From: a virus
Strand: one strand, 5' to 3'
Length of the DNA: 38,040 nt
IMG/VR virus record: IMGVR_UViG_3300042553_000266
Coordinates: 1-38,040 of that record
The position numbers and the translations under genes are program-made. The first letter of the stretch is position 1; the number at the start of each line of letters is the position of its first letter. The notes beneath the pieces are model-generated. The model made no database searches and was not told where the DNA came from. It saw only the letters and a program-made list of their open reading frames with translations. Below, one piece after another: positions 3,235 to 38,040 of the stretch.

Positions 3235-3711
3235 ATGCTGATCCTGCTGTTTGCTCAGCCGTCGTCACCCCCGCCAGCATCTATTGATGTCGGTTGGGGG
3301 TCGCAGCCTTGGGCGGCTGCGCCGTGGGCGGGCGAACTGCCCGCCGCAGGTGCGTACAGCCTGTCGCTGGACGCCGGCAGCTATAGCCTGTCAGGGCAAG
3401 ACGTAACGCTTACGTATCTGCCTGCTGGCGGTACCGCGTACAGCCTGTCGCTGGACGCTGGCAGTTACCTTTTGTCAGGGCAGGATGTCGGCCTTACGTC
3501 GGCACGACGCATAGCTCTTGATACCGGCACGTATAGCCTGACCGGCTACGACGTAACTTTTCGCACTACGCTCAGTATACCTCTTGACACAGGGGTGTAT
3601 ACTTTAAACGGCCAGCCTGTTACCCTGACTTGGAGCGGCGCACCGCCAGTTGCAACGCCAATCGATACAATCATTACACTGCGTTCACTGACCGAACGCT
3701 GGAGAATGTAA
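3235..3711 (+). CDS. Repeat-containing structural protein
   Basis: A 158-residue protein with a Pro/Trp/Ala-rich N terminus followed by four imperfect repeats of about 20-28 residues, each centred on the pattern LD(A/T)G.Y.L.G..V. Examples are SLDAGSYSLSGQDV, SLDAGSYLLSGQDV, ALDTGTYSLTGYDV and PLDTGVYTLNGQPV. The first two copies are also close at DNA level (both carry gtacagcctgtcgctggacgc), so they are a recent duplication. The hydrophobic MLILLFA start resembles a weak membrane anchor but is too short for a convincing signal peptide. The repeats suggest stacked beta hairpins in a virion appendage. Function unknown. Confidence 0.7.
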   Translation: MLILLFAQPSSPPPASIDVGWGSQPWAAAPWAGELPAAGAYSLSLDAGSYSLSGQDVTLTYLPAGGTAYSLSLDAGSYLLSGQDVGLTSARRIALDTGTYSLTGYDVTFRTTLSIPLDTGVYTLNGQPVTLTWSGAPPVATPIDTIITLRSLTERWRM

Positions 3712-3714
3712 CTC

Positions 3715-4020
3715 ATGTCCACCGCCGTCAAAGCAATTACTTCCTGCTTGGGCTACCAGCAGATCACCTCGCTGAGCGCATCCACGGGCCTGACCGTGCC
3801 GACGACCGACAAGAACGGTCTGAACGCCAAGCCGACGCTGGCGCTGATCGTGGCCGACACTCAGAACGTCCGCTGGCGCGATGACGGCGTGGCCCCGACC
3901 GCGAGCATTGGAATGCCGCTGGCCAAAGGCGTAACGCTGCAATACGACGGCGACCTGTCCAAGATCCGATTCATCGAAGAAGTCGGCGGGGCAGTCCTCA
4001 ACATCTCTTACTACGTCTGA
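3715..4020 (+). CDS. Small beta-rich structural protein
   Basis: A 101-residue protein preceded by GGAGAA 8-14 nt before the ATG. It reads as a compact beta domain with the pattern ALIVADTQNVRWRDDGVAPT, then a GMPLAKGVTLQYDGDLSKIRFIEE segment, and ends in ISYYV. Single-domain proteins with the 'NVRWRDDG..PTAS.GMPL..G' pattern recur in phage structural clusters. A capsid decoration or fibre-adaptor role would fit the position just before the scaffold and coat genes, but that is inference. Confidence 0.7.
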   Translation: MSTAVKAITSCLGYQQITSLSASTGLTVPTTDKNGLNAKPTLALIVADTQNVRWRDDGVAPTASIGMPLAKGVTLQYDGDLSKIRFIEEVGGAVLNISYYV

Positions 4021-4027
4021 GGCCGAC

Positions 4028-4519
4028 ATGCCGACCACATTCAACGACGCGGCTCCGGTGGACTACGTCAAGTATTTCACGGATCAACTGCCGCAGGATC
4101 TGGCAAAGCTGGCGGCGCTGCGCGACGAACTGGCGCTGCGGCAGGGCAACATCGACGCGGTCAAGAAGACCGCTGAGATGAAAGAGCAGGCGAAGAAGGA
4201 ACTGGACGAAGCGAAGGCCGAGGCCGCGCAGCTAAAGGCCGAAGCCAAGGCGGACGCGGCAGAGGCGTCCGCCAAGAAGAAGGCGCAGGACGCCCGCGAG
4301 AAGGAACTGACCGCTCGCATTACTGACTTCGACAAGCAGGTGGCCGCGCAGGCCACTGCCGCCGCGCAGAAGGACAAGACGCTGGCCGACCGCGAAGCGG
4401 CGCTGGCAAAGCAGACTGCGGATTTGCAGGCTCTGCAACAGAAACTCGACCGCGACCGTGCGGACCTCGACGCCCGAGTGAAGGCGTTCCAGGCGAAGGT
4501 GGCGGCACTGACAGTTTGA
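4028..4519 (+). CDS. Coiled-coil protein
   Basis: A 163-residue, highly charged Ala/Lys/Glu/Asp-rich protein. After a folded-looking N terminus (about 1-35, with DYVKYFTDQLP) it is a nearly unbroken helix from about residue 36 to 160 with heptad spacing of Leu/Ala, i.e. a long coiled coil. The ATG lies 8 nt after the previous stop, with a weak GAGG upstream. Coiled-coil proteins before capsid genes may be scaffold co-factors, head-fibre stalks or tail parts. The sequence supports the coiled coil but no specific role. Confidence 0.7.
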   Translation: MPTTFNDAAPVDYVKYFTDQLPQDLAKLAALRDELALRQGNIDAVKKTAEMKEQAKKELDEAKAEAAQLKAEAKADAAEASAKKKAQDAREKELTARITDFDKQVAAQATAAAQKDKTLADREAALAKQTADLQALQQKLDRDRADLDARVKAFQAKVAALTV

Positions 4520-26738: not shown

Positions 26739-28700
26739 ATGCCCATACTTTGGCTAGATTTTGAAACCCGCAGCCGCTGTGACCTGAAGGCTGCGGGCAC
26801 TTACAACTACGCGCTCGACGCCAGCACCGAGGTGCTGTGCATGTCCTACGCGTTCGATGATGAACTTGTTAAGACATGGGTGCCCGGATCACCATTTCCG
26901 GCTGACGTGTTAAACCACACGGGCCAGATCCGCGCTCACAACGCCGCGTTCGAAAGGCTAATCTTTTGGCATGTGCTGGAGATCCCGTTCCGGCTGGAGC
27001 AGTTCTACTGCACCGCCGCGCAGGCCCGCGCTAACTGCGCTCCCGGCTCGCTGGAGGACGTCGGAAGGTTCGCCAGCTCTGACATGCGGAAGGACCATCG
27101 AGGGGCGCAACTGATCCGACTGCTGTGCGTCCCGCAGGCGGACGGGACGTTCCGCGAAGACCCGGCGCTGATGCGGGAAATGATCGCCTATTGCGAACAG
27201 GACGTCCGCGCCATGCGGGAGATCAGCAAGGCGCTGCGCGACCTGTCGGACGAGGAACTGGCCGACTATCACGTCAACGAGCGCATCAACGACCGAGGCG
27301 TCCGAGTGGACGTGCCGCTGTGCGCCGCCGCCCAGGTCTACGCCGAGGCCGAGCGGGTGGAGATCGAGGCGCTGGTGCGGGAGGTGACCAACGGCGCCGT
27401 CACGTCGGTGCGCTCGCCGACGATGCGCCAATGGGTGCTGGAGCGTCTCGGCCCCGAGGCCCGCAAGCTAGCCAAGGTTCAAAAGGGCGAGCAAGAGAAG
27501 GACAGCCTCGACAAGAGCGTGCGGGCTAACCTGCTGGTGCTGGCCGAGGAAGACCCCGCCGAGGTGCCGCCTGACGTGGCCGACGTGTTGCAGTGCGCTG
27601 ACGATCTGTGGGCCAGCAGTGTCGCCAAGTTCGCCCGTCTCCAGGCGCTGGCCGACGTCGAGGACAGCCGGGTGCGGGGCGCGTTCGTCTTCGCTGGCGG
27701 CGCTGCGACCGGACGGGCTTCGTCGTATGGCGCCCAGGTGCATAACTTTACCCGCAAGGTGGCTGACGATCCGGCCAGTGCCCGCGATGCGATGGTGCGA
27801 CGACATGAGATCGTGCCGCGCTTCGGCGCCAGGGTGACCGACGTCCTGCGGGGGATGCTTCGGCCCGCGCTGATCCCGGCGCCGGGGCACGTTTTCGTGG
27901 CCGCGGACTGGTCGGCCATTGAGGGGCGAGTCCACCCGTGGCTGTCGGACTCGCCTGCGGGCGAGCGCAAGTTGGACGTGTTCCGCGAGGGCCTCGAGCC
28001 GTACAAGGTCAACGCCAGCGCCACGTTCCACGTCGCTTACGAGAACGTCACGGGCGAACAGCGGCAGGTCGGCAAGGTGCAGGAGTTGGCGCTGGGGTTC
28101 CTCGGTGGTGTCGGCGCTTTTGAGACGTTCGGCAGGGTCTACGGCGTGCGCCTGCCTGCCGCCGAGGCCCGCCGTGCCGTAGACGGCTGGCGAGCGGCGA
28201 ACCCTTGGGCGCAGGAGCACGGCTGGCGGCTGGATGCTGCCGCCCGCGCCGCTATGCGCTCGCCAGGAAAGGAAGTGACCGCTGCGCGGATAACGTACTA
28301 CTATGACCGCGAGCACCTGTGGTACATCCTGCCGTCTGGCCGCATCCTGCGCTACCCGTATGCCCGCTTTGACGACGACGGCAGCATTTCGTATGCAAAA
28401 GCGGCGTGGAAGCCATCAGCGGATGCGACCGAATGGCCGAGGGCGCGGTTGTGGGCTGGGTTGCAGTGCGAGAACGTGACGCAGGCAGCGGCAAACGACA
28501 TCCTGCGGTCGGCGCTGCGGCGGCTGGAGGGGCGTTGGGCCGTAGTACTACACGTCCACGATGAAGTGGTGCTAGAGGTGCCACGCCGCAAGGCGGAAGC
28601 CGCGCAGGAGGATCTGCTGGCGATCATGCGGGAGCCGCCGTCATGGGCGAGCGGGCTGCCGTTAGACGCGAAGGCAGAGGTTATGGACCGTTACTGCTGA
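26739..28700 (+). CDS. DNA polymerase, family A with 3'-5' exonuclease
   Basis: A 653-residue replicative polymerase. Exonuclease motifs: ExoI LDFETRS (Asp7, Glu9), ExoII HNAAFERL (Glu in place of the usual Asp after the aromatic residue), ExoIII YCEQDV (Tyr151, Asp155). Polymerase motifs: A VAADWSAIEGR (Asp390, Glu395), B RQVGKVQELALGFLGG (Arg442, Lys446) and C LHVHDEVVLEVP (His607, Asp608, Glu609). Length fits phage enzymes lacking the 5'-3' exonuclease. There is no Shine-Dalgarno sequence; the terminator-like hairpin ends 9 nt before the ATG, yet the start is certain because ExoI begins at residue 6. No nearby alternative start exists. Confidence 0.93.
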   Translation: MPILWLDFETRSRCDLKAAGTYNYALDASTEVLCMSYAFDDELVKTWVPGSPFPADVLNHTGQIRAHNAAFERLIFWHVLEIPFRLEQFYCTAAQARANCAPGSLEDVGRFASSDMRKDHRGAQLIRLLCVPQADGTFREDPALMREMIAYCEQDVRAMREISKALRDLSDEELADYHVNERINDRGVRVDVPLCAAAQVYAEAERVEIEALVREVTNGAVTSVRSPTMRQWVLERLGPEARKLAKVQKGEQEKDSLDKSVRANLLVLAEEDPAEVPPDVADVLQCADDLWASSVAKFARLQALADVEDSRVRGAFVFAGGAATGRASSYGAQVHNFTRKVADDPASARDAMVRRHEIVPRFGARVTDVLRGMLRPALIPAPGHVFVAADWSAIEGRVHPWLSDSPAGERKLDVFREGLEPYKVNASATFHVAYENVTGEQRQVGKVQELALGFLGGVGAFETFGRVYGVRLPAAEARRAVDGWRAANPWAQEHGWRLDAAARAAMRSPGKEVTAARITYYYDREHLWYILPSGRILRYPYARFDDDGSISYAKAAWKPSADATEWPRARLWAGLQCENVTQAAANDILRSALRRLEGRWAVVLHVHDEVVLEVPRRKAEAAQEDLLAIMREPPSWASGLPLDAKAEVMDRYC

Positions 28701-28709
28701 GATCACAAA

Positions 28710-31040
28710 ATGACAACAACCGGAGAGTTCATCAAGTGGTTCGCTGCGCTGGCGCCGGAGGGCGAGACGGCGCTGCTGGTACGGCAGAAGCCGCTCACGC
28801 CGCTTCAGTACCACGCCGACGGCGCCGTCAAAGCGACGTGGCCCGCCGTCATGCCGGGGCCGGGTGCCAGGGCGATGCGCGAAGGGCAGAGTTGGTACGG
28901 CAACACCGCTTCGTTCATCCTCGACCGGATGCGCGAGCGGGTGTCTGTAGCGGCGAAGAATTGCGAGTTCGTGCTGGTCATGATCCTCGATGACGTCAGC
29001 ACCAAGAGCAAAGAGCCGTCGCTGCCGCCGACGTGGGTCATGGAAACGTCGCCGGGTAACTTCCAATGGGGTTATGCGTTCAGCGAACAGCCGCCCAAGC
29101 AGCACTTCGCCGCCGCGATAGCTGCTATCGCCGAGGCGGGCTATACCGACCCCGGCGCGGGTAATCCCGTTCGTAACTTTCGCCTGCCAGGGAGCGTCAA
29201 CCTCAAGCAGGGCAAGGGCGAGTTCGCCGCCCGGCTGGTGGAGTTCGAGCCGTCGCGTGAGTACACCCTCGATGAGATCTGCTCAGCCCTCGGCGTCACG
29301 TATGACCCCGAGGCGGGCGGAAGTGGTCCAGCGCCCGTCTACGTGGTCGATGACGGCGGCGATGACGTAGCGGCGTGGCTCGTTGGGCAGGGGCTGGTGT
29401 ACTCGCGCCCGAATAGCACGGGCTGGATGGGGGTCGCCTGCCCTAACGCTGAGCAGCATACCGACGGCTCGCCGGAGGGCCGTTATCACCCGGCGTCGCG
29501 GTCGTACTGCTGCTTGCACTCGCACTGCCTCCACTTAGACTCGCGGGCATTCTTGCGATGGGTAGCGGTTAACGGTGGGCCGCAGCGCGAGCCAGGACTG
29601 CGCGAGGAACTGGTCGCCACCCGGCTGGCCTCGACCCTGAGTCAACTGCCCGAGCCGCCCGCCGAGTTGACCGAAGCCGCCGCTGCCGTGGTCGCCGAGG
29701 TCGAACTGCGGGAACTGGGCCGCATCGAGAAGGGGCAGTGGTTCGAACGGTTCGCATACGTGCTGGCCGACGATTCCTATTACCACCTAGAGACCCGGCA
29801 CGAACTGGACCGCCGTGGTTTCAACGCGCTCTATAGGCACGTCGGCTGCCGGTCGATTCACGATGGGCGCCGCGTCGAAGCAAGCATTTGCTTCGACGAA
29901 AACCGCAGCGCAGCAGGCGGTCGCGTGCTTAGCGGCATGACCTACGCTGCCGGCGAATCGGCGCTCGTCACGAACAGCGACGGCGAGGTATTCGGCAATC
30001 GTTGGCGCGATGCGAGGGCAGCGGTCGACCGTGAAGCAGAGGTGGACATCAGCCGGTGGCTGGAGTTGTGCGAACGGCTGGTGCCTGAGCGGTCGGAATT
30101 GGAGCACCTATGGGACATCATGGCGTTCAAGCTTCAGCATCCCGAGGTCAAGGTGAATCACGCCGTTCTCCACGCCGGGACGCAAGGTTGCGGCAAAGAC
30201 ACCCTGTGGGCGCCGTTTCAATGGGCGGTTTGCGGTGGTCGGGACGTCGAAGCGTTGCGAAACCATCAGAAGATGGACGTGGCAGATTTAGAGAGTCAAT
30301 GGGGTTATGCGCTTGAGTCCGAGATTATCGTGCTCAACGAACTACACGAATCAGCGGCTGCGGAAAGGCGAGCGTTGGCCAACCGACTGAAGCCTATTAT
30401 CGCGGCCCCGCCGTTGACGTTGACTGTCAACCGTAAGCACAAGCACCCGTATGAGGTGATGAACAGGGTTTTTGTGCTCGCATTTTCAAACTATCACGTC
30501 CCGATATCGATTGATTCTCAGGACCGTCGATGGTTTTGCGTCTGGTCTCACGCGCCGATCATGCATGACGGCGAGGGGAAGGCGTTCTGGCGCTGGTTTC
30601 GTCAAGGTGGCTTTGCTGGGGTTGCGGCGTGGCTCTGGCGCCGAGACGTGTCGGCGTTCGACGCGGGTGCGACGCCGAAGTGGACCGATTACAAGTACTC
30701 GCTGATTGAGCATTCCATGTCGCAAACTGAATCGTTCCTTGTCGGCATGATCCGTGGCCGTCATGGCGAGTTCGCGAAGGGCGCGGTCTGTGGCCCGTAT
30801 GGGGCTTTGTGCGAGCGCGTGCAGGCGATGGCGCCCCCAGGAGCACGGGTCTATCAGGCTGCGCTGCTACACGCCTTCGGTGAGGCCGGATGGGTGGACA
30901 TGGGGCGTCTGGCATCGTCGGAGTACAGCACGAAGAAGCATATCTTCGCTGCGCCCGACGTGGTGCGGATGATGTCCAAGTCAGACATCCGCAGGCTGGT
31001 AGAAGACGTGCCGCCAGGGGCGTTGAAGGTCGTCAAGTAG
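28710..31040 (+). CDS. Primase-helicase (RepB-like primase plus SF3-type helicase)
   Basis: A 776-residue protein, 9 nt after the polymerase gene. The N-terminal 200 residues resemble an archaeo-eukaryotic/RepB-type primase: FVLVMILDDVSTKSKE with the acidic pair, and LPPTWVMETSPGNFQWGYAF. Residues 490-498 give the Walker A TQGCGKDT within HAGTQGCGKDTLWAPF. The downstream NHQKMDVADLESQWGYALES, then EIIVLNELHE (Walker B) and NRVFVLAFSNY, with SQDRRWF, correspond to DUF5906/VapE-like helicases with motif C and an arginine finger. A Cys/His cluster around 260-280 (CPNAEQH, CCLHSHCLH) may be a zinc site. It should prime and unwind the phage replication fork with the adjacent polymerase. Confidence 0.85.
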   Translation: MTTTGEFIKWFAALAPEGETALLVRQKPLTPLQYHADGAVKATWPAVMPGPGARAMREGQSWYGNTASFILDRMRERVSVAAKNCEFVLVMILDDVSTKSKEPSLPPTWVMETSPGNFQWGYAFSEQPPKQHFAAAIAAIAEAGYTDPGAGNPVRNFRLPGSVNLKQGKGEFAARLVEFEPSREYTLDEICSALGVTYDPEAGGSGPAPVYVVDDGGDDVAAWLVGQGLVYSRPNSTGWMGVACPNAEQHTDGSPEGRYHPASRSYCCLHSHCLHLDSRAFLRWVAVNGGPQREPGLREELVATRLASTLSQLPEPPAELTEAAAAVVAEVELRELGRIEKGQWFERFAYVLADDSYYHLETRHELDRRGFNALYRHVGCRSIHDGRRVEASICFDENRSAAGGRVLSGMTYAAGESALVTNSDGEVFGNRWRDARAAVDREAEVDISRWLELCERLVPERSELEHLWDIMAFKLQHPEVKVNHAVLHAGTQGCGKDTLWAPFQWAVCGGRDVEALRNHQKMDVADLESQWGYALESEIIVLNELHESAAAERRALANRLKPIIAAPPLTLTVNRKHKHPYEVMNRVFVLAFSNYHVPISIDSQDRRWFCVWSHAPIMHDGEGKAFWRWFRQGGFAGVAAWLWRRDVSAFDAGATPKWTDYKYSLIEHSMSQTESFLVGMIRGRHGEFAKGAVCGPYGALCERVQAMAPPGARVYQAALLHAFGEAGWVDMGRLASSEYSTKKHIFAAPDVVRMMSKSDIRRLVEDVPPGALKVVK

Positions 31041-32205: not shown

Positions 32206-32850
32206 TTACGCCACGGCCCAGGACGGCAGGGGGTCGCGTTTCGTTACGTCAGTGTCATCGCGTAAAGACATCAGGACGCCGATGGCGTCATGGTGCAGGC
32301 CGCTGATCCATGCCGGTTTCGTGCCGTTGTGGTGGACAGTGAACGGGGTTTTGCCGCCAAGCGTGGAATGAATCTGGCCCCATCGAGTAATCAAGGCAGG
32401 ATCGAATTGCTGGAGCTCGCCAGACGAAGTAGCAGGAACGACCCGGCGCCAGTCCGGGTAAATGCCGTCCACGGGCGCCGTGGTGGCGGTAGTCGCGCCC
32501 TCAAGGGTGATAGTCGGCGCAAGCTTCAGCATGACGCCGGGACGGTCAGGGTCCGGCGTGAGTGCCGGGACGTTGACCGAGACCCGAATCGACAGCGTAA
32601 GACGCCCGACCTTCGCGGGCTTCACGGCTTCAAGCGTAGCGCGAGGGATGATGTACTGCCCGGAAGGGATAGCAGACTCGATGTTCGCTTGTGGTACCGG
32701 GACGGCGAGCAGCATATGCCCATCCGTAGCTACCAGGGTGACGTCAGACTCCCGCACGTCGATGAGTGCGCCAACAAGGTAGTATCGGACGTCTTGTTTC
32801 GGCATGGTGGTCAAAAGGGCCTTAATGACGTCGTGGTCGATGGTGAACAT
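32206..32850 (-). CDS. DNA sliding-clamp-like protein, short form
   Basis: A 214-residue protein, clearly related in parts to bacterial DNA polymerase III beta clamp (about 366 residues, three domains). Visible signatures are VTLVATDGHMLLAVPV (ATDGH at 41-45, the beta-clamp VATDGHRL motif) and GIYPDWRRVVP at 129-139 (compare YPDYRRVIP). The chain has room for two clamp domains at most, so it would need to form a trimer or higher ring, or serve as a decoy or adaptor for host DnaN. It is expressed early with small proteins of unknown function. Start context is GGAGAGTCCAATCATG. Confidence 0.75.
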   Translation of the reverse strand: MFTIDHDVIKALLTTMPKQDVRYYLVGALIDVRESDVTLVATDGHMLLAVPVPQANIESAIPSGQYIIPRATLEAVKPAKVGRLTLSIRVSVNVPALTPDPDRPGVMLKLAPTITLEGATTATTAPVDGIYPDWRRVVPATSSGELQQFDPALITRWGQIHSTLGGKTPFTVHHNGTKPAWISGLHHDAIGVLMSLRDDTDVTKRDPLPSWAVA

Positions 32851-33085: not shown

Positions 33086-33787
33086 TCAGTTGAAATGAAC
33101 GGCGCCGGAGCCGTGGACTTGAATAACGACCGATCCACGACGCCCGGATGCATGGCCATTGCAGTGACCGCAGTCGATGCACTGCACGCCTTTGTCGGAC
33201 GGGCAGATCGCCTCGCCTTGGGCGCGATCCGCGAGCCGTGACACGCGGAAGTAGCGCCACCCCTTAGCGCGTGCCTGTGCGGCTTCTGTGGGCGAATCGA
33301 CACTCGCCATGATGTAGGGGCGCAGGGACGGGCGGATGCGCCACTGGTGCGTGTAGCCGGTCCAGCCGGTGGCGTGCTTGGTGACCGACCGAATGGTCTG
33401 AATCGGCAACGCAGCGGGGTCACCGTATGCCCCAAGGCGCACCATGCGGCCGCTAGTGGCATCGCGCAAGGATTGCGCGGTCGCCAGGGGATAGCCGCCG
33501 TTAATGTACGTGCGGAAGATTTGACCGGGCGCCTGTCCTGCGTTGACATAGCAGCTGCGTTGCGCGCCCGTGCCGTCACCCCTGTGGATGCAATCGCCAC
33601 AGATAGACGCATCCGCGCCGGCTTTGATCGCGGCCACGGGTGACATGTCGGACCGCAGTATCCACAGCTGGCACATATCGCCCGTCTTACGGTTGCCGCT
33701 GTGCAGCGTGAGAATGGCGACGATAGGTGCGCCGTCAAGGCGAGATGGACCTTCGTAGACGACGAGACCGGTAGGTTGTGTTTGCAT
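33086..33787 (-). CDS. Cys-rich protein of the early operon, function unknown
   Basis: A 233-residue protein and first gene of the minus-strand early operon. ATG 33787 has AAGGAG 10 nt upstream; a longer frame to 33862 lacks one. It has eight cysteines in two groups: Cys39, 63, 66, 79 (TGDMCQLWILR, ASICGDCIHR, SCYVNAGQAP) and Cys195, 203, 206, 209 (ICPSDKGVQCIDCGHC). The spacing suggests a zinc site or an Fe-S cluster. Between them are LATAQSLRDATSGRMVRLGA and PYIMASVDSPTEAAQARAKG. I recognise this as a recurring phage family but cannot assign a function. Confidence 0.75.
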   Translation of the reverse strand: MQTQPTGLVVYEGPSRLDGAPIVAILTLHSGNRKTGDMCQLWILRSDMSPVAAIKAGADASICGDCIHRGDGTGAQRSCYVNAGQAPGQIFRTYINGGYPLATAQSLRDATSGRMVRLGAYGDPAALPIQTIRSVTKHATGWTGYTHQWRIRPSLRPYIMASVDSPTEAAQARAKGWRYFRVSRLADRAQGEAICPSDKGVQCIDCGHCNGHASGRRGSVVIQVHGSGAVHFN

Positions 33788-33868
33788 GTTGCCGCGCTCC
33801 TTGTGAACTGTATTTGGACTCAAATGTACTCTTGACCCTGATCGCGTCGTTTGCGCGACCATGTGAGG

Positions 33869-33897
33869 ATGCTACAGATTGTCTTGCAGTCTGTCAA
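33869..33897 (-). promoter_or_regulatory. Strong sigma70-type promoter of the early operon
   Basis: On the complement, TTGACA (33897-33892) and TAGCAT (33874-33869) are separated by exactly 17 nt. Transcription would begin near 33862, about 75 nt before the ATG at 33787. The -35 box is the consensus hexamer. The downstream part CTGCAAGA....CTGTAGCATCC recurs in the divergent + strand promoter at 34377-34407. Confidence 0.8.
33874..33894. promoter_or_regulatory. Candidate operator inside the early promoter
   Basis: ACAGATTG-TCTTG-CAGTCTGT is an 8-bp inverted repeat with one mismatch and a 5-bp centre, filling the spacer of the early promoter. A dimeric repressor bound here would block RNA polymerase. 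Confidence 0.5.
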
Positions 33898-33974
33898 CAA
33901 CTTGCGTTTTGGGTAGTATGGGTGTCTGGTTTGGTGGTGCGGTGGTGCCGGATGACAATCGAGGGCGGTGGGGT

Positions 33975-34001
33975 AAGGGGTTGATATCGCGGCCCCTTTT
34001 T
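33975..34001 (+). terminator. Weak terminator-like hairpin
   Basis: AAGGGG and CCCCTT can pair across a 12-nt loop and are followed by TTT. The short stem and large loop make it a weak candidate; it has no + strand gene immediately upstream. Confidence 0.3.
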
Positions 34002-34031
34002 GTAGGTTGAGGTGAGCTTTAGGTTGTAGGA

Positions 34032-34109
34032 TGGGTCAGAATTTATTTTAGTGTTTTTGTCCAAAAAAACTTTTTCTTGGGTCGTGACAATTTGACCCAA
34101 ATGACCCAA
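34032..34109. repeat. TGACCCA-type heptamer repeats flanking an AT-rich tract
   Basis: TGACCCA occurs at 34093-34099 and 34102-34108 (9-nt spacing) and inverted as TGGGTCA at 34032-34038; TTGGGTC at 34077-34083 also faces GACCCAA at 34094-34100. Between them, 34038-34079 is strongly AT-rich (attttattttagtgttttt, then aaaaaaactttttc) in an otherwise GC-rich genome. This resembles an initiator-binding array beside a DNA unwinding element, or a regulator cluster. Confidence 0.5.
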
Positions 34110-34120
34110 AAGACTGTAAA
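34092..34120 (+). promoter_or_regulatory. Candidate + strand promoter
   Basis: TTGACC (34092-34097) and TGTAAA (34115-34120) are spaced by 17 nt. The -35 overlaps the TGACCCA repeats, and a dyad ACTGTA-N6-TACAGT (34113-34130) covers the -10 box. It would transcribe rightward through the iterons. Confidence 0.4.
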
Positions 34121-34161
34121 GCTATACAGTACTACCCACAAGAGCCGCGTCAGCAGCCCCA

Positions 34162-34180
34162 TTTCCCACAATGCGGGAAA
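34162..34180. promoter_or_regulatory. Dyad TTTCCC-N7-GGGAAA
   Basis: A 6-bp perfect inverted repeat (34162-34167 and 34175-34180) directly to the left of the 37-bp palindrome; operator-sized and in the middle of the control region. Confidence 0.35.
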
Positions 34181-34216
34181 ACAGATACATTCCATTTGGA
34201 ATGGAATGTATCTGTT
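34180..34216. repeat. 37-bp near-perfect palindrome
   Basis: A 17-bp arm beginning AACAGATACATTCCATT (34180-34196) is perfectly complementary to the arm at 34200-34216 around the 3-nt centre TGG. In DNA it is a large symmetric protein-binding site or cruciform; in RNA a long hairpin. A 17-nt segment of it recurs at 34228-34244. Confidence 0.8.
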
Positions 34217-34227
34217 CGGCAGCACGG

Positions 34228-34244
34228 CAGATACATTGCATTTG
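34228..34244 (+). repeat. Second copy of the palindrome motif
   Basis: CAGATACATTGCATTTG differs by one base from CAGATACATTCCATTTG at 34182-34198. Together with the inverted copy in the right palindrome arm there are at least three copies of CAGATACATT within 60 bp. Confidence 0.7.
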
Positions 34245-34270
34245 TGATCTATATATCTGTCTGCCGCGCG

Positions 34271-34314
34271 GACAGTCGCCAGACAGTCGCCAGACAGTCG
34301 CCAGACAGTCGCCA
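34271..34314 (+). repeat. Four tandem 11-bp iterons
   Basis: GACAGTCGCCA is repeated four times without a mismatch (34271, 34282, 34293, 34304). The 11-bp period is about one turn of the helix, so each copy faces the same side, as in iteron arrays bound by replication initiators or regulators. The units carry no spacers and are too short for CRISPR. Confidence 0.8.
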
Positions 34315-34376
34315 TCTCGTTCCCTGGTGACGCACTTTTTGAGGCGCTGTAACAATCGACGGGTGCTACAAAATAG

Positions 34377-34407
34377 TTAACACAGGCTGCAAGAGTTCCT
34401 GTAGCAT
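34377..34407 (+). promoter_or_regulatory. Candidate + strand promoter facing the late genes
   Basis: TTAACA (34377-34382) and extended -10 TGTAGCAT with TAGCAT at 34402-34407; the 19-nt spacer is long. The sequence GCTGCAAGAGTTCCTGTAGCATCC closely matches the early promoter read on the other strand, which argues for a functional element. Confidence 0.55.
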
Positions 34408-34452
34408 CCATACATGCCTGCCGCGTCGGTGGGCAACAACGGGAGAATCAAC

Positions 34453-34542
34453 ATGTATACAGTCATTATCTGGGCAATCGCACTCACCCCCCTGGCCATC
34501 CCCGTTAGCAACTGGTGGCACAACCGCGGCCTGCGTCGCTGA
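34453..34542 (+). CDS. Small membrane peptide, 29 aa
   Basis: ATG at 34453, preceded by GGGAGAA at correct spacing, opens 29 codons: MYTVIIWAIALTPLAIPVSN then WWHNRGLRR. One transmembrane helix with a basic cytoplasmic-type tail, topologically N-out/C-in by the positive-inside rule. It is the first gene after the control region on the + strand, followed 8 nt later by a strong GC hairpin. Function unknown. Confidence 0.55.
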   Translation: MYTVIIWAIALTPLAIPVSNWWHNRGLRR

Positions 34543-34550
34543 CCCGACAC

Positions 34551-34575
34551 GGGGCGCCGGTCACCCCGGCGCCCC
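34551..34575 (+). terminator. Strong GC hairpin after the small membrane peptide gene
   Basis: GGGGCGCCGG and CCGGCGCCCC form a perfect 10-bp stem with loop TCACC, 8 nt after the TGA. There is no U tract (TGGCC follows), so termination efficiency is uncertain. Confidence 0.6.
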
Positions 34576-34798
34576 TGGCCGCCCGCCCCGTGCCGCGAGT
34601 CGCCACTGCAAGACTCGTGCCACCCGGCTGGCCCTAGCAAGCCGCGTGCCTGGGTGCCGTCGGCGGATCGCGTCCCGCGCGAAGCCCCCGGGTAGGTCCG
34701 GCGACCGCCCGGTCTGGTTCAGGAGCCCCCAGCCAAAATTTTTAATTTTTCCCAGCACAACGCTACACATCCTACAGCACCCCTCTATCACAAACCCC

Positions 34799-34821: not shown

Positions 34822-35322
34822 ATGTTCAAGAGCCTTCCTCTCACCGTCCGCGAAATCAAGGCGACTGAGGCCGTGCTGAACCGCATCTACGAGGCGGCGC
34901 GGCTGGGCCTCAAAGGCGACAGTCTGGCTTTAAAGGCTGACCTGTTGCCCGTCGAGCTGCGGCGTTTGCAAGAGTTCGACCCGATGGCGCAACTGGCCGA
35001 GGCCAAAGGCCGCGCTGACGCCGAAGCGCAGTTGTCCGAGGTGATGATGAACGCCGCGCTGGCGGGCGACGCCAAGGTGGCACTCGACGTCCTCAAGCAC
35101 AAGCACGACTGGGCCGCGACCCAGCACATACAGATGGACGTCAGCCAGCAGATCAGCATCCTCACCGCGCTCAAGCAGGCGGAAGAGCGCGTAATCGAGG
35201 GCATAGCCACTGACGTAACTGAGGCCCAACAGATCCCATATGCAGAAACCTATCTACAGCCCAGACGACGAACAGTTGTTGATGTCGCGTCTGTGGTCGC
35301 CACGGATCAAGGACGACCCTGA
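34822..35322 (+). CDS. Terminase small subunit (probable)
   Basis: A 166-residue protein immediately before the large terminase; P22 gp3 is about 162 residues. Residues 1-35 (LPLTVREIKATEAVLNRIYE) look like a DNA-binding helical region. A long helical middle follows (EAKGRADAEAQLSEVMMNAA then DAKVALDVLKHKHDW), with an oligomerisation-type helix QISILTALKQAEERV and a polar tail. It should recognise the packaging site and stimulate the motor. There is no Shine-Dalgarno sequence before the ATG; a 7-bp hairpin abuts it. The 3' end overlaps the large subunit gene by 83 nt, unusually long. Confidence 0.72.
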   Translation: MFKSLPLTVREIKATEAVLNRIYEAARLGLKGDSLALKADLLPVELRRLQEFDPMAQLAEAKGRADAEAQLSEVMMNAALAGDAKVALDVLKHKHDWAATQHIQMDVSQQISILTALKQAEERVIEGIATDVTEAQQIPYAETYLQPRRRTVVDVASVVATDQGRP

Positions 35323-36793
35323 GGCGTTCGTGTTGCTGGCCTTCCCGTGGGGCCAGCCCAACACGCCGCTGGAGCACTTCCAGGGCCCGCGCAAGTGGCA
35401 GCGCGGGGTGCTGCGCGATCTGGCCAACCACATCCGCAAGAACCGCGAGATCCGGGCCGACGCTACTGCCGACGCCCCGGCGGTCCTCCAGGCGCTGCGG
35501 GACGCGACGGCGTCGGGGCGCGGCATCGGCAAGTCGGCGCTGGTCAGTTGGCTCATCCTGTGGATGCTGACCACCCGGATCGGCAGCACGACCATCGTCA
35601 GCGCCAACAGCGAGGCGCAGTTGCGTAGCGTCACCTGGGGCGAACTGACCAAGTGGACGGCGATGATTATCAACAGCCACTGGTGGGAGATCAGCGCAAC
35701 CAAGCTGGTCCCGGCGCAATGGCTGACGACGCTGGTGGAGCGCGACCTGAAGAAGGGGACGCGCTACTGGGCGGCGGAGGGCAAGCTGTGGTCGGAAGAG
35801 AACCCGGACAGCTACGCGGGCGTCCACAACCACGACGGCATGCTGTTGATCTTCGACGAGGCGTCGGGGGTCCCGGACACGATCTGGTCGGTCGCGGCTG
35901 GCTTCTTTACGGAGAACATCGTCGATAGGTACTGGTTCGCCTTCAGCAACCCACGGCGCAATACGGGGTACTTCTACGAGTGCTTCAACGCCAAGCGGGA
36001 CTTCTGGTCGTCGCGCAACATCGACGCCAGGACGGTGGAGGGCACCGACAAGAACATCTACGCGCAGATCATCGAGGAGTACGGCGAGGACAGCCGCGAG
36101 GCGCGGATTGAGGTCTACGGGGAGTTTCCCAGCCAAGGCGACGATCAGTTCATCAGCCCGCAACTGGTCAACGACGCCTTCGAGCGAGCGCCGCACAAGG
36201 ACCCCGGAGCGCCCATCGTCATCGGCGTGGACCCGGCCCGCAGCGGCGCGGACTCGACGGTGATCGCGGTGCGGCAAGGGCGCGACCTGATCGCGTTGAA
36301 GCGTCACCACGGCGACGACACCATGACGGTCGTCGGGCACGTCATCGAGGCCATCGAAGAGTACAAGCCCGCGCTGACGGTCATTGACGAGGGCGGACTG
36401 GGGTACGGCATCCTGGATCGGCTGACCGAGCAGCGGTACAAGGTCAGGGGCGTGAACTTCGGCTGGAAGGCCAAGAATCCGATCATGTGGGGCAACAAGC
36501 GGGCGGAACTGTGGGGCGCCATGCGGGAGTGGCTCAAGACCGCTGCCGTGCCGCCCGACAAACGGCTCAAGATCGACCTGACCGGCCCCAAAACCAAGCC
36601 CGACAGCAGCGGCACGCTGTTCCTGGAGGCGAAAAAGGACATGCTGAAGCGCGGTTTGGCCTCGCCAGACGCCGCCGACGCTATCGCAGTCACTTTTGCA
36701 TACCCCTTGGCGCATAGGGAGTACAATCCGAAGCCAAAACGGGTCGTTGCCTACCAAGGCAGCGCCGCCGCGAACTCCTGGATGGGGGCCTGA
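35240..36793 (+). CDS. Terminase large subunit
   Basis: A 517-residue packaging motor with ATPase and nuclease domains. Walker A is SGRGIGKS at 92-99. Walker B is LLIFDEAS with Asp206-Glu207. The nuclease carries the RNase H-type acids Asp331 (VIGVDPARSGADST), Asp383 (TVIDEGGLG) and Asp480 (SPDAADAIAV). The N-terminal SPDDEQLLMSRLWSP and FPWGQPNTPLEHFQGPR are typical of podoviral terminases of this subgroup. An internal ATG at 35282 is an alternative start, but the conserved N terminus favours 35240. Packaging type (headful or cos) cannot be told from the sequence. Confidence 0.92.
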   Translation: MQKPIYSPDDEQLLMSRLWSPRIKDDPEAFVLLAFPWGQPNTPLEHFQGPRKWQRGVLRDLANHIRKNREIRADATADAPAVLQALRDATASGRGIGKSALVSWLILWMLTTRIGSTTIVSANSEAQLRSVTWGELTKWTAMIINSHWWEISATKLVPAQWLTTLVERDLKKGTRYWAAEGKLWSEENPDSYAGVHNHDGMLLIFDEASGVPDTIWSVAAGFFTENIVDRYWFAFSNPRRNTGYFYECFNAKRDFWSSRNIDARTVEGTDKNIYAQIIEEYGEDSREARIEVYGEFPSQGDDQFISPQLVNDAFERAPHKDPGAPIVIGVDPARSGADSTVIAVRQGRDLIALKRHHGDDTMTVVGHVIEAIEEYKPALTVIDEGGLGYGILDRLTEQRYKVRGVNFGWKAKNPIMWGNKRAELWGAMREWLKTAAVPPDKRLKIDLTGPKTKPDSSGTLFLEAKKDMLKRGLASPDAADAIAVTFAYPLAHREYNPKPKRVVAYQGSAAANSWMGA

Positions 36794-36795
36794 CC

Positions 36796-36933
36796 ATGCC
36801 GCTGACCAAATCCGCTAGCAAAACTGCGTTCAAAAAGAACGTAAAAGCCGAAATTGCCGCCGGAAAACCGCAAAAACAGGCGGTAGCGATCAGTTACGCA
36901 GTGCAACGCAAGGCGCAAGGCAAGAAAAAATGA
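36796..36933 (+). CDS. Small basic protein between terminase and portal, 45 aa
   Basis: ATG 36796, two bases after the terminase stop; the TGA overlaps the portal ATG. The 45 residues, MPLTKSASKTAFKKNVKAEI then AAGKPQKQAVAISYAVQRKA and QGKKK, are very basic. Short proteins of the pattern 'TKS.SK.A...N...E...GKP.KQAVAIA' are common beside phage terminase, portal and replication genes. No function is established; a DNA-binding or capsid-internal role is possible from charge. Confidence 0.75.
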   Translation: MPLTKSASKTAFKKNVKAEIAAGKPQKQAVAISYAVQRKAQGKKK

Positions 36934-38040
36934 CGAAAGAAGAACGTCTGGCTCAAATGCGCTCGCGCCTGCGGGTGGCGCTGTCGGCGTACTCGGAAAG
37001 TCGCTCAAATGAGCTTGACGACCTCAAGTTTCTCGCCGGATCGCCGGACAACCAGTGGCAGTGGCCCGCCGACGTGCTGCAAACGCGGGGCGCGATCCAA
37101 GGCCAGACGATCAACGCCCGCCCGTGCCTGACGATCAACAAGCTGCCGCAGCACGTCAAGCAGGTGACCAACGACCAGCGGCAAAACCGCCCTAGCGGCA
37201 AGGTCATCCCCGCAGACGACAAAGCAGACCCTGAAGTCGCCGAGATCTTCGACGGTATTGTACGACATATCGAGTACATGTCGGACGCCGACGTGGCCTA
37301 CGACACCGCCTGCGAGAATCAGGTGACGTATGGCGAGGGCTACATCCGTATTCTCACCGAATACTGCGACGACAACACGTTCGATCAGGACATCCGCATC
37401 GGGCGGGTGCGCAACTCGTTCAGCGTCTTCATGGACCCGCTGATCCAGGACCCCTGCGGCGCGGACGCGAACTGGTGCTTTATCACCGAGGACCTGCCAA
37501 AAGAGGAATTCGAGCGGCTGTTCCCGGACGCGCAGCCGATCTCCACGCTGATGTCGCAAGGCATCGGCGACCAGGACCTGAACCAGTGGATTCAACAGCA
37601 GACGGTACGGATTGCGGAGTACTTCTACGTCGTCTACGAACCGGTGAAACTGCGCCTGTACCCCGGCAACGTGACCGTCGAGGCGGGGTCGAAAGAGGAC
37701 CGCGAGATCGCTGGCATGGGCCTCAAGCCGCTGCGCGAGCGCGTGGCGCAGGCGAAACGGGTTAAGTGGTGGAAGACCAACGGCTACGAGGTGCTGGAAG
37801 AGCAGGACTGGCCCGGCAAGTGGATCCCGGTCGTGCGCGTGGTCGGCAACGAGTACGAGGTAGAAGGGCAGGTGTACATCAGCGGTCTGGTGCGCAACGC
37901 CAAAGACGCGCAGCGGATGTACAACTACTGGACCAGCCAGGAAGCCGAGATGCTGGCGTTGGCGCCCAAGGCGCCGTTCATCGGCTACGGCGGGCAGTTC
38001 GAGGGCTACGAGCACCAGTGGAAGACCGCCAACGTCACCA
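36930..38040 (+). CDS. Portal protein, P22-like, 5' part
   Basis: The ATG at 36930 overlaps the previous stop (ATGA); 370 codons are present and the gene runs off the window (P22 gp1 is about 725 residues). The P22-like portal pattern is clear: RPCLTINKLPQHVKQVTNDQ followed by RQNRPSG, EIFDGIVRHIEYMSDADVAY, VTYGEGYIRIL, FSVFMDPLIQDPCGADANWC, and RMYNYWTSQEAEMLALAPKA. The dodecameric portal is the DNA channel and docks terminase and the gp4-like factor. The absence of its C-terminal half at the left edge shows the window does not close the circle. Confidence 0.92.
   Translation, partial: MTKEERLAQMRSRLRVALSAYSESRSNELDDLKFLAGSPDNQWQWPADVLQTRGAIQGQTINARPCLTINKLPQHVKQVTNDQRQNRPSGKVIPADDKADPEVAEIFDGIVRHIEYMSDADVAYDTACENQVTYGEGYIRILTEYCDDNTFDQDIRIGRVRNSFSVFMDPLIQDPCGADANWCFITEDLPKEEFERLFPDAQPISTLMSQGIGDQDLNQWIQQQTVRIAEYFYVVYEPVKLRLYPGNVTVEAGSKEDREIAGMGLKPLRERVAQAKRVKWWKTNGYEVLEEQDWPGKWIPVVRVVGNEYEVEGQVYISGLVRNAKDAQRMYNYWTSQEAEMLALAPKAPFIGYGGQFEGYEHQWKTANVT

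Follow-up and report, generated by a model that had tools for sequence, protein, structure and literature searches.

A candidate iteron origin in an uncultured P22-like podovirus, and a three-residue primase-helicase code that tracks the putative origin repeats among its relatives

Introduction

Iteron origins read by helicase initiators are already known, as is the co-diversification of initiator and iterons in PLE. In the Rep-ori modules of SaPI and PICI elements (SaPIbov1 Rep, the SaPI5 primase-helicase and those of E. coli PICIs), short iterons are recognised by the C-terminal domain of an initiator helicase, which in some cases is fused to a primase; the origin has an AT-rich melting site with a set of iterons on either side (PMC7581432, PMC6092414). 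The alpha protein of P4 carries a primase of the bacterial (Toprim) type, a helicase and a C-terminal winged-helix origin-binding domain on one polypeptide, and binds repeats at ori (PMC4234260). For the NrS-1 primase-polymerase, the part of the description consulted here reports a Tail domain without known similarity and describes no iteron origin (PMC7102993). In PLE replicons, initiator and iterons diversify together under selection by an origin-directed nuclease, ICP1 Odn (PMC8263062). Most tailed phages have no known origin, and among uncultured ones almost none does.

Here we analyse a stretch of 38,040 nucleotides (IMG/VR record IMGVR_UViG_3300042553_000266, positions 1 to 38,040; hereafter the window), which covers part of the genome of an uncultured P22-like podovirus. 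The architecture of its candidate origin matches that of SaPI/PICI and P4 origins. As in P4, primase, helicase and a predicted C-terminal winged helix are joined in one protein and repeats lie at the proposed origin, whereas the primase part matches RepB_primase. As in SaPIs and PICIs, the iterons would be read by the C-terminal domain of an element-encoded initiator helicase, as indicated by co-variation and hold-out prediction; unlike in those modules, about 3 kb and the leftward operon separate the proposed origin from the initiator gene, the proposed origin adjoins terS, and the phage is P22-like and encodes a family-A polymerase of its own. A satellite of the SaPI/PICI kind has no full virion gene set, and the window encodes a terminase large subunit, a portal, a tail spike and a lysozyme. 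The PLE replicon is likewise modular, with co-diversifying RepA and origin, but its initiator is an unrelated protein of the RepA_N type and its longer iterons occur in few variants. We found no description of a residue-level code across more than ten specificities in SaPIs, nor, in the literature searched (which covers subscription literature only in part), any report of the origins of this phage family or of a three-residue code; the code therefore appears to be new, and its novelty is provisional.

The control region and its iteron-like words

The interval 33788-34452 is flanked by a leftward gene (ATG at 33787) and a rightward 29-aa ORF (start at 34453), and is intergenic apart from small spurious ORFs, in agreement with the first-pass annotation, which had seen no convincing gene here and had read the interval as a candidate origin and transcription switch. 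All the elements that it listed (TGACCCA words, an AT-rich tract, dyads, a 37-bp palindrome, a further copy of its motif and four 11-mers) are present where it had placed them. The origin-like part is made up as follows (L006, L007 and L089 are close relatives, introduced below).

33788..34452, no strand: non-coding control region of 665 bp, with an origin-like iteron array and a divergent transcription hub
33953..33960, plus strand: weaker iteron-like word TGACAATC, which is TGCCAATC in L006
34031..34038, minus strand: iteron candidate TGACCCAT, with an exact TGACCCA at 34032 (minus)
34040..34079, no strand: most AT-rich 40-mer of the 38-kb record (80% AT), candidate unwinding element
34077..34084, minus strand: iteron candidate CGACCCAA, which is TGACCCAA in L007
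34085..34092, plus strand: weaker iteron-like word TGACAATT, absent from L089
34093..34100, plus strand: iteron candidate TGACCCAA, exact TGACCCA, with an ACCCAAA core invariant in all close relatives
34102..34109, plus strand: iteron candidate TGACCCAA, exact TGACCCA, 9 bp after the preceding candidate

The region has four sites within one mismatch of TGACCCAA, where the expectation is 0.68 (2 of 200 shuffles). For sites of this kind the region is the densest 300 bp of the window. Two of the four lie on the minus strand and two on the plus strand, and the AT tract sits between the two minus-strand sites. The pattern TGACMMW, which was picked after inspecting the region, turns up six times within 276 bp, where its frequency in the rest of the window would predict about 0.24, and two TGACAA and four GACCCA sites fall within about 160 bp. 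The array is small, with four to six iteron-like words against the 8-15 often seen in relatives, and taken alone is significant at about 1 in 100 only; because of this small size, we infer the identity of the window's own iterons.

Close relatives and the wider family of loci

Relatives were located through the terminase large subunit (TerL, 35240..36793). An initial set of about 50 relatives, at about 75% TerL identity, was followed by three further scans that led to 205 loci with both primase-helicase and TerL, 177 of them unique. The region itself can be aligned in four versions, namely the window, L006 (identical to L087 and L088), L007, and L089 (identical to L090). The ACCCAAA pair is invariant in all four despite deletions around it, and L089 retains the ACCCAAA cores only.

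In about 50 relatives, the interval upstream of terS, from the end of the primase gene to the terminase, mostly consists of an array of a short word of 7-10 bp that differs between phages (ATTGCCAAT, TTGCCTACA, ATGACTACA, TGACCGAA, TTGCCCACA, TGACCCAT and others), and a short-repeat array is clear in most of the 177 unique loci. In nine of ten records the repeats are concentrated at the site, with a density of up to 15 per kb compared with 0-0.25 per kb in the rest of the record. Across the family, 9 bp is the dominant spacing between neighbouring sites, and the array cores of relatives are 62% AT, against 53% for the region. A two-sided inverted orientation is a tendency only (86.6% against 81.4% under strand permutation).

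No direct DNA match was found in named phages, among whose records a relative of the primase-helicase with more than 80% coverage occurs in a single metagenomic genome, MW202483. One locus, L003 (DSL-LC05), has dense TGACCCACTGGGTCA palindromes upstream of terS (3380-4320) and shows no match to the C-terminus of the window's primase-helicase; it may have a different initiator that reads a similar word.

The primase-helicase as candidate initiator

The protein proposed to read these words is encoded on the far side of the leftward operon.

28710..31040, plus strand: primase-helicase, proposed initiator, with a RepB-type primase N-terminus, an SF3/D5-like helicase and a C-terminal winged helix
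30903..30941, plus strand: wing GRLASSEYSTKKH, residues 732-744, with specificity columns 735, 737 and 740

It matches the domains RepB_primase and DUF5906 and has an AAA+ SF3 helicase fold with a C-terminal extension. Among solved structures, two come nearest: the C-terminal helicase region of the NrS-1 polymerase, to which the C-terminal half is most similar (Z 23.7, rmsd 5.9 over 270 residues), and the SaPI5 primase-helicase, matched over the helicase part (Z 17.5, rmsd 2.9 over 210 residues). In the structural model, a predicted winged-helix domain carries a beta-hairpin wing; residues 735, 737 and 740 lie in the loop of this hairpin, between two strands, where pLDDT is about 90. Searched alone against the PDB, this domain gave no clear match, only weak winged-helix matches with Z of at most 6.6. 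The P4 domain was matched directly neither in sequence nor in fold, and its absence among the fold matches listed is no proof of difference.

Terminase aside, the primase-helicase is by far the most widely spread upstream protein family (31 loci in the initial set), and no other upstream non-structural family comes near its spread over the loci.

Co-variation between the repeat word and three wing residues

For 96 representatives, we asked column by column, over the variable positions of the C-terminal 330 residues and with control for backbone identity, how closely residue identity follows repeat similarity as measured on 6-mer spectra. Three of the 246 variable columns track the word: A735 (column 302, partial r 0.53), S737 (column 304, 0.36) and S740 (column 307, 0.52). 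The next-best column reaches a partial r of 0.125, and the maximum of 1000 within-clade permutations was 0.205. From high to low backbone identity, motif cosines are 0.63, 0.53, 0.45, 0.37 and 0.40 for pairs with identical triplets, against 0.09, 0.07, 0.05, 0.04 and 0.05 for those in which all three residues differ. Identical triplets thus go with similar words even at 40-60% backbone identity, and differing triplets with differing words even above 90%.

By individual triplet, K.R..D goes with GTCCAC in 21 of 24 classified cases, H.R..P with CCCACA in six of six, M.R with GACTA in seven of seven and A.G..P with GACCCAA in seven of eight. The K.R..D triplet recurs, together with the same word TTGTCCACA, in well separated clades. 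When both are mapped onto a tree built from the rest of the protein, a change of word class coincides with a change of triplet on 17 branches, in excess of expectation (Fisher p 4e-5). A further 14 motif changes come without a wing change, and some of these are ambiguous reconstructions or unclassified arrays.

The triplet-to-word rule was written down before loci from a new scan and a genome collection were scored. Of ten classes, the one that the rule predicted ranked first in enrichment in 33 of these 36 new loci, and in nine of the ten whose primase was less than 95% identical to the training set. In two of the three misses, the predicted word ranked second, outscored by GACCGA words (30 or more in 1.2 kb) that probably form a tandem array.

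The triplet of the window, A.S..S, is absent from the training set; the triplets nearest to it predict TG[AC]CAA or GACCCA, and the window has both. As an example of the rule, the window is therefore neither rich in copies nor sharp, and the strong evidence is at the family level.

Reading the interval as an origin

We regard it as likely that the interval around 33.95-34.11 kb is the replication origin of the phage, and that its iterons are bound by the winged helix of the primase-helicase. The first-pass annotation had proposed a combined origin and regulatory hub that the primase-helicase of the phage would need; this is supported, most strongly at the family level, where the repeats co-vary with the DNA-binding wing of that protein. 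It is this co-variation that suggests physical binding; origin activity itself, as well as melting and initiation, we infer by analogy with described origins.

In the proposed mechanism, the winged-helix C-terminus would bind the TGACCCA-type words beside the AT tract, and the bound protein would assemble SF3 helicase rings that melt the tract, the initiator loading itself. The primase domain would then prime, and the family-A polymerase of the phage would start copying. A self-loading initiator is the simplest reading because of the comparison with SaPI/PICI origins and P4 alpha. Divergent promoters, together with LexA-like and CAGATAYAT-type operators, share the region, so that initiation and transcription could be controlled together.

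For the family, we lean towards a reading in which iterons and initiator co-diversify via three residues at the wing tip, forming a predictive code of over ten specificities, with origin-directed parasites or incompatibility as possible drivers, and in which a LexA box ties some origins to the SOS response of the host. In these phages, a probable origin can be placed on the genome and its repeat can largely be predicted from three initiator residues, and natural protein variants make the recognition of a phage origin directly testable. Natural data sets on a protein-DNA recognition code are rare, and the 96 representative pairs, with repeated and partly independent switches, provide one; they also raise the question of what selection lies behind such rapid change of origin sequence.

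The family might have such origins while the window's own words are chance or fossil matches, the functional sites of this phage being the palindromes or lying elsewhere. The low copy number and weak statistics of the window array speak for this, as does the fact that the palindrome block at 34160-34270 is the best-conserved part among the four close relatives. However, the ACCCAAA pair stays invariant in those relatives despite the nearby deletions, it sits at the position and the 9-bp spacing typical of the family, and the wing is identical to that of the window in close relatives with a readable primase; we consider this alternative unlikely.

Co-variation indicates that the protein reads the repeats, and it does not follow that replication starts there, since the repeats could also be autoregulatory operators. 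The primase-helicase, or a regulator travelling with it, would then bind them to control the divergent promoters, with replication starting elsewhere. The sites do lie between such promoters, and the LexA-like box and the CAGATAYAT dyads are typical operators. On the other hand, up to about 15 sites at 9-bp spacing beside the most AT-rich stretch would be unusual for plain operators, the reader is a helicase-primase, and the spread of that protein family is unrivalled among upstream non-structural families, which makes an operator-only function rather improbable.

Known cos and pac sites often adjoin or sit within terS, and the repeats lie directly upstream of terS in relatives, but recognition sites bound by the neighbouring small terminase are a very remote prospect given that TerS is conserved while the repeats change completely and that no TerS column tracks them well. 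The best TerS column reaches 0.18 and the best TerL column 0.26, against 0.53 for the primase wing, and TerS was rejected as the reader.

The first-pass annotation had looked to a cumulative GC-skew minimum as support for an origin, and to a skew inflection elsewhere together with unconserved repeats as evidence against one. Neither in the window nor in nine related records does the cumulative curve have its minimum at the region; the curve depends on an arbitrary start, and the result only shows that GC skew is uninformative here. While the inflection lies elsewhere, the repeats are kept in position, though their sequence diversifies.

Promoters, palindromes and operator-like elements

Around the origin-like words, the control region carries the following elements.

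33869..33897, minus strand: clear leftward promoter, TTGACA-17-TAGCAT
34113..34130, no strand: LexA-box-like dyad ACTGTAAAGCTATACAGT, CTGT-N8-ACAG (box 34114-34129), beside the window's iterons
34162..34180, no strand: dyad TTTCCC-N7-GGGAAA, TTTCCCACAATGCGGGAAA
34180..34216, no strand: perfect 37-bp palindrome (17+3+17), half-site CAGATAYAT, operator candidate
34228..34259, no strand: second dyad, sharing its half-sites with the 37-bp palindrome (CAGATAYAT; CAGATACAT...ATATATCTG)
34271..34314, plus strand: four tandem exact 11-mers GACAGTCGCCA, not conserved
34377..34407, plus strand: weak rightward promoter-like site TTAACA-19-TAGCAT, within an inverted copy of the leftward promoter

The outward-facing promoters of the first-pass annotation hold for the leftward side, where the promoter is kept in two of three close relatives, with weaker conservation in L089. 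The rightward site is weak in the window, and relatives have at its position a different and better promoter, TTGACA-18-TATTAT. The inverted copy spans 35 bp at 80% identity (33860-33894 against 34382-34416) and takes the place of the rightward promoter in the window; relatives differ.

In alignment, the elements differ in conservation. Together with the ACCCAAA pair, the 34160-34270 block, which includes both CAGATAYAT dyads, is conserved in close relatives, and conservation of the 37-bp palindrome is limited to these. The palindrome is probably an operator, and the CAGATAYAT dyads most plausibly serve a phage regulator as operators. Because the palindrome's imperfections in relatives would give C-A mismatches in a hairpin, an RNA hairpin was rejected, favouring a putative DNA-protein dyad. 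The large palindromes are not supported as members of the initiator code, and the origin-like part consists of the TGACCCA words and the AT tract. A wide search with the CAGATAYATTNNATTTG dyad returned mostly unrelated single matches, plus the close relatives, and Rfam gave microRNA matches only, at chance level.

The tandem 11-mers had been taken for iterons and were dropped as such, being absent from L006 and fewer in L007 and L089. Short tandem arrays resembling them (units of 7-11 bp, of unrelated sequence) lie between the iterons and terS in L073 (834-900), L283, L384 and L064.

ACTGTAN6WACAG occurs in the regions of 19 of the 96 relatives, against 0.0 expected, suggesting SOS control through a LexA box in part of the family.

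Genome setting

The genes framing the region are given below; the window also encodes a portal, a tail spike and a lysozyme.

26739-28700: family-A DNA polymerase
33086..33787, minus strand: first leftward gene, phrog_2554, of unknown function
34453..34542, plus strand: 29-aa ORF, first on the rightward side, kept in L006 and L007 and replaced in L089
34822..35322, plus strand: terminase small subunit, by position and relatives
35240..36793, plus strand: terminase large subunit

The hosts may be betaproteobacteria: several genome-collection matches are Rhodoferax, Betaproteobacteria or Burkholderiaceae bins and others are not, and the binning of phage contigs is unreliable. A circular window was considered and rejected, as the frame joins across the ends by chance but a portal fragment would meet a tail-fibre-like protein. 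At the ends themselves (1-1115 and 36930-38040), the portal gene runs off the record and the start is a tail-fibre-like gene.

The leftward operon encodes a small protein that matches an HTH weakly and, at 32206-32850 (minus strand), a sliding-clamp-like protein (DNA_pol3_beta_2); the RusA-like label on the best PHROG of the clamp-like protein may be a mislabel. The 29-aa ORF at 34453-34542 has a ribosome-binding site and an apparently hydrophobic segment, and is the first gene of the rightward operon. Upstream of terS, RNA structure gives a weak folding signal (z -1.7). A GC-rich non-coding stretch at 34543-34760, with a AAAATTTTTATTTTT tract directly upstream of terS, is conserved in position across relatives.
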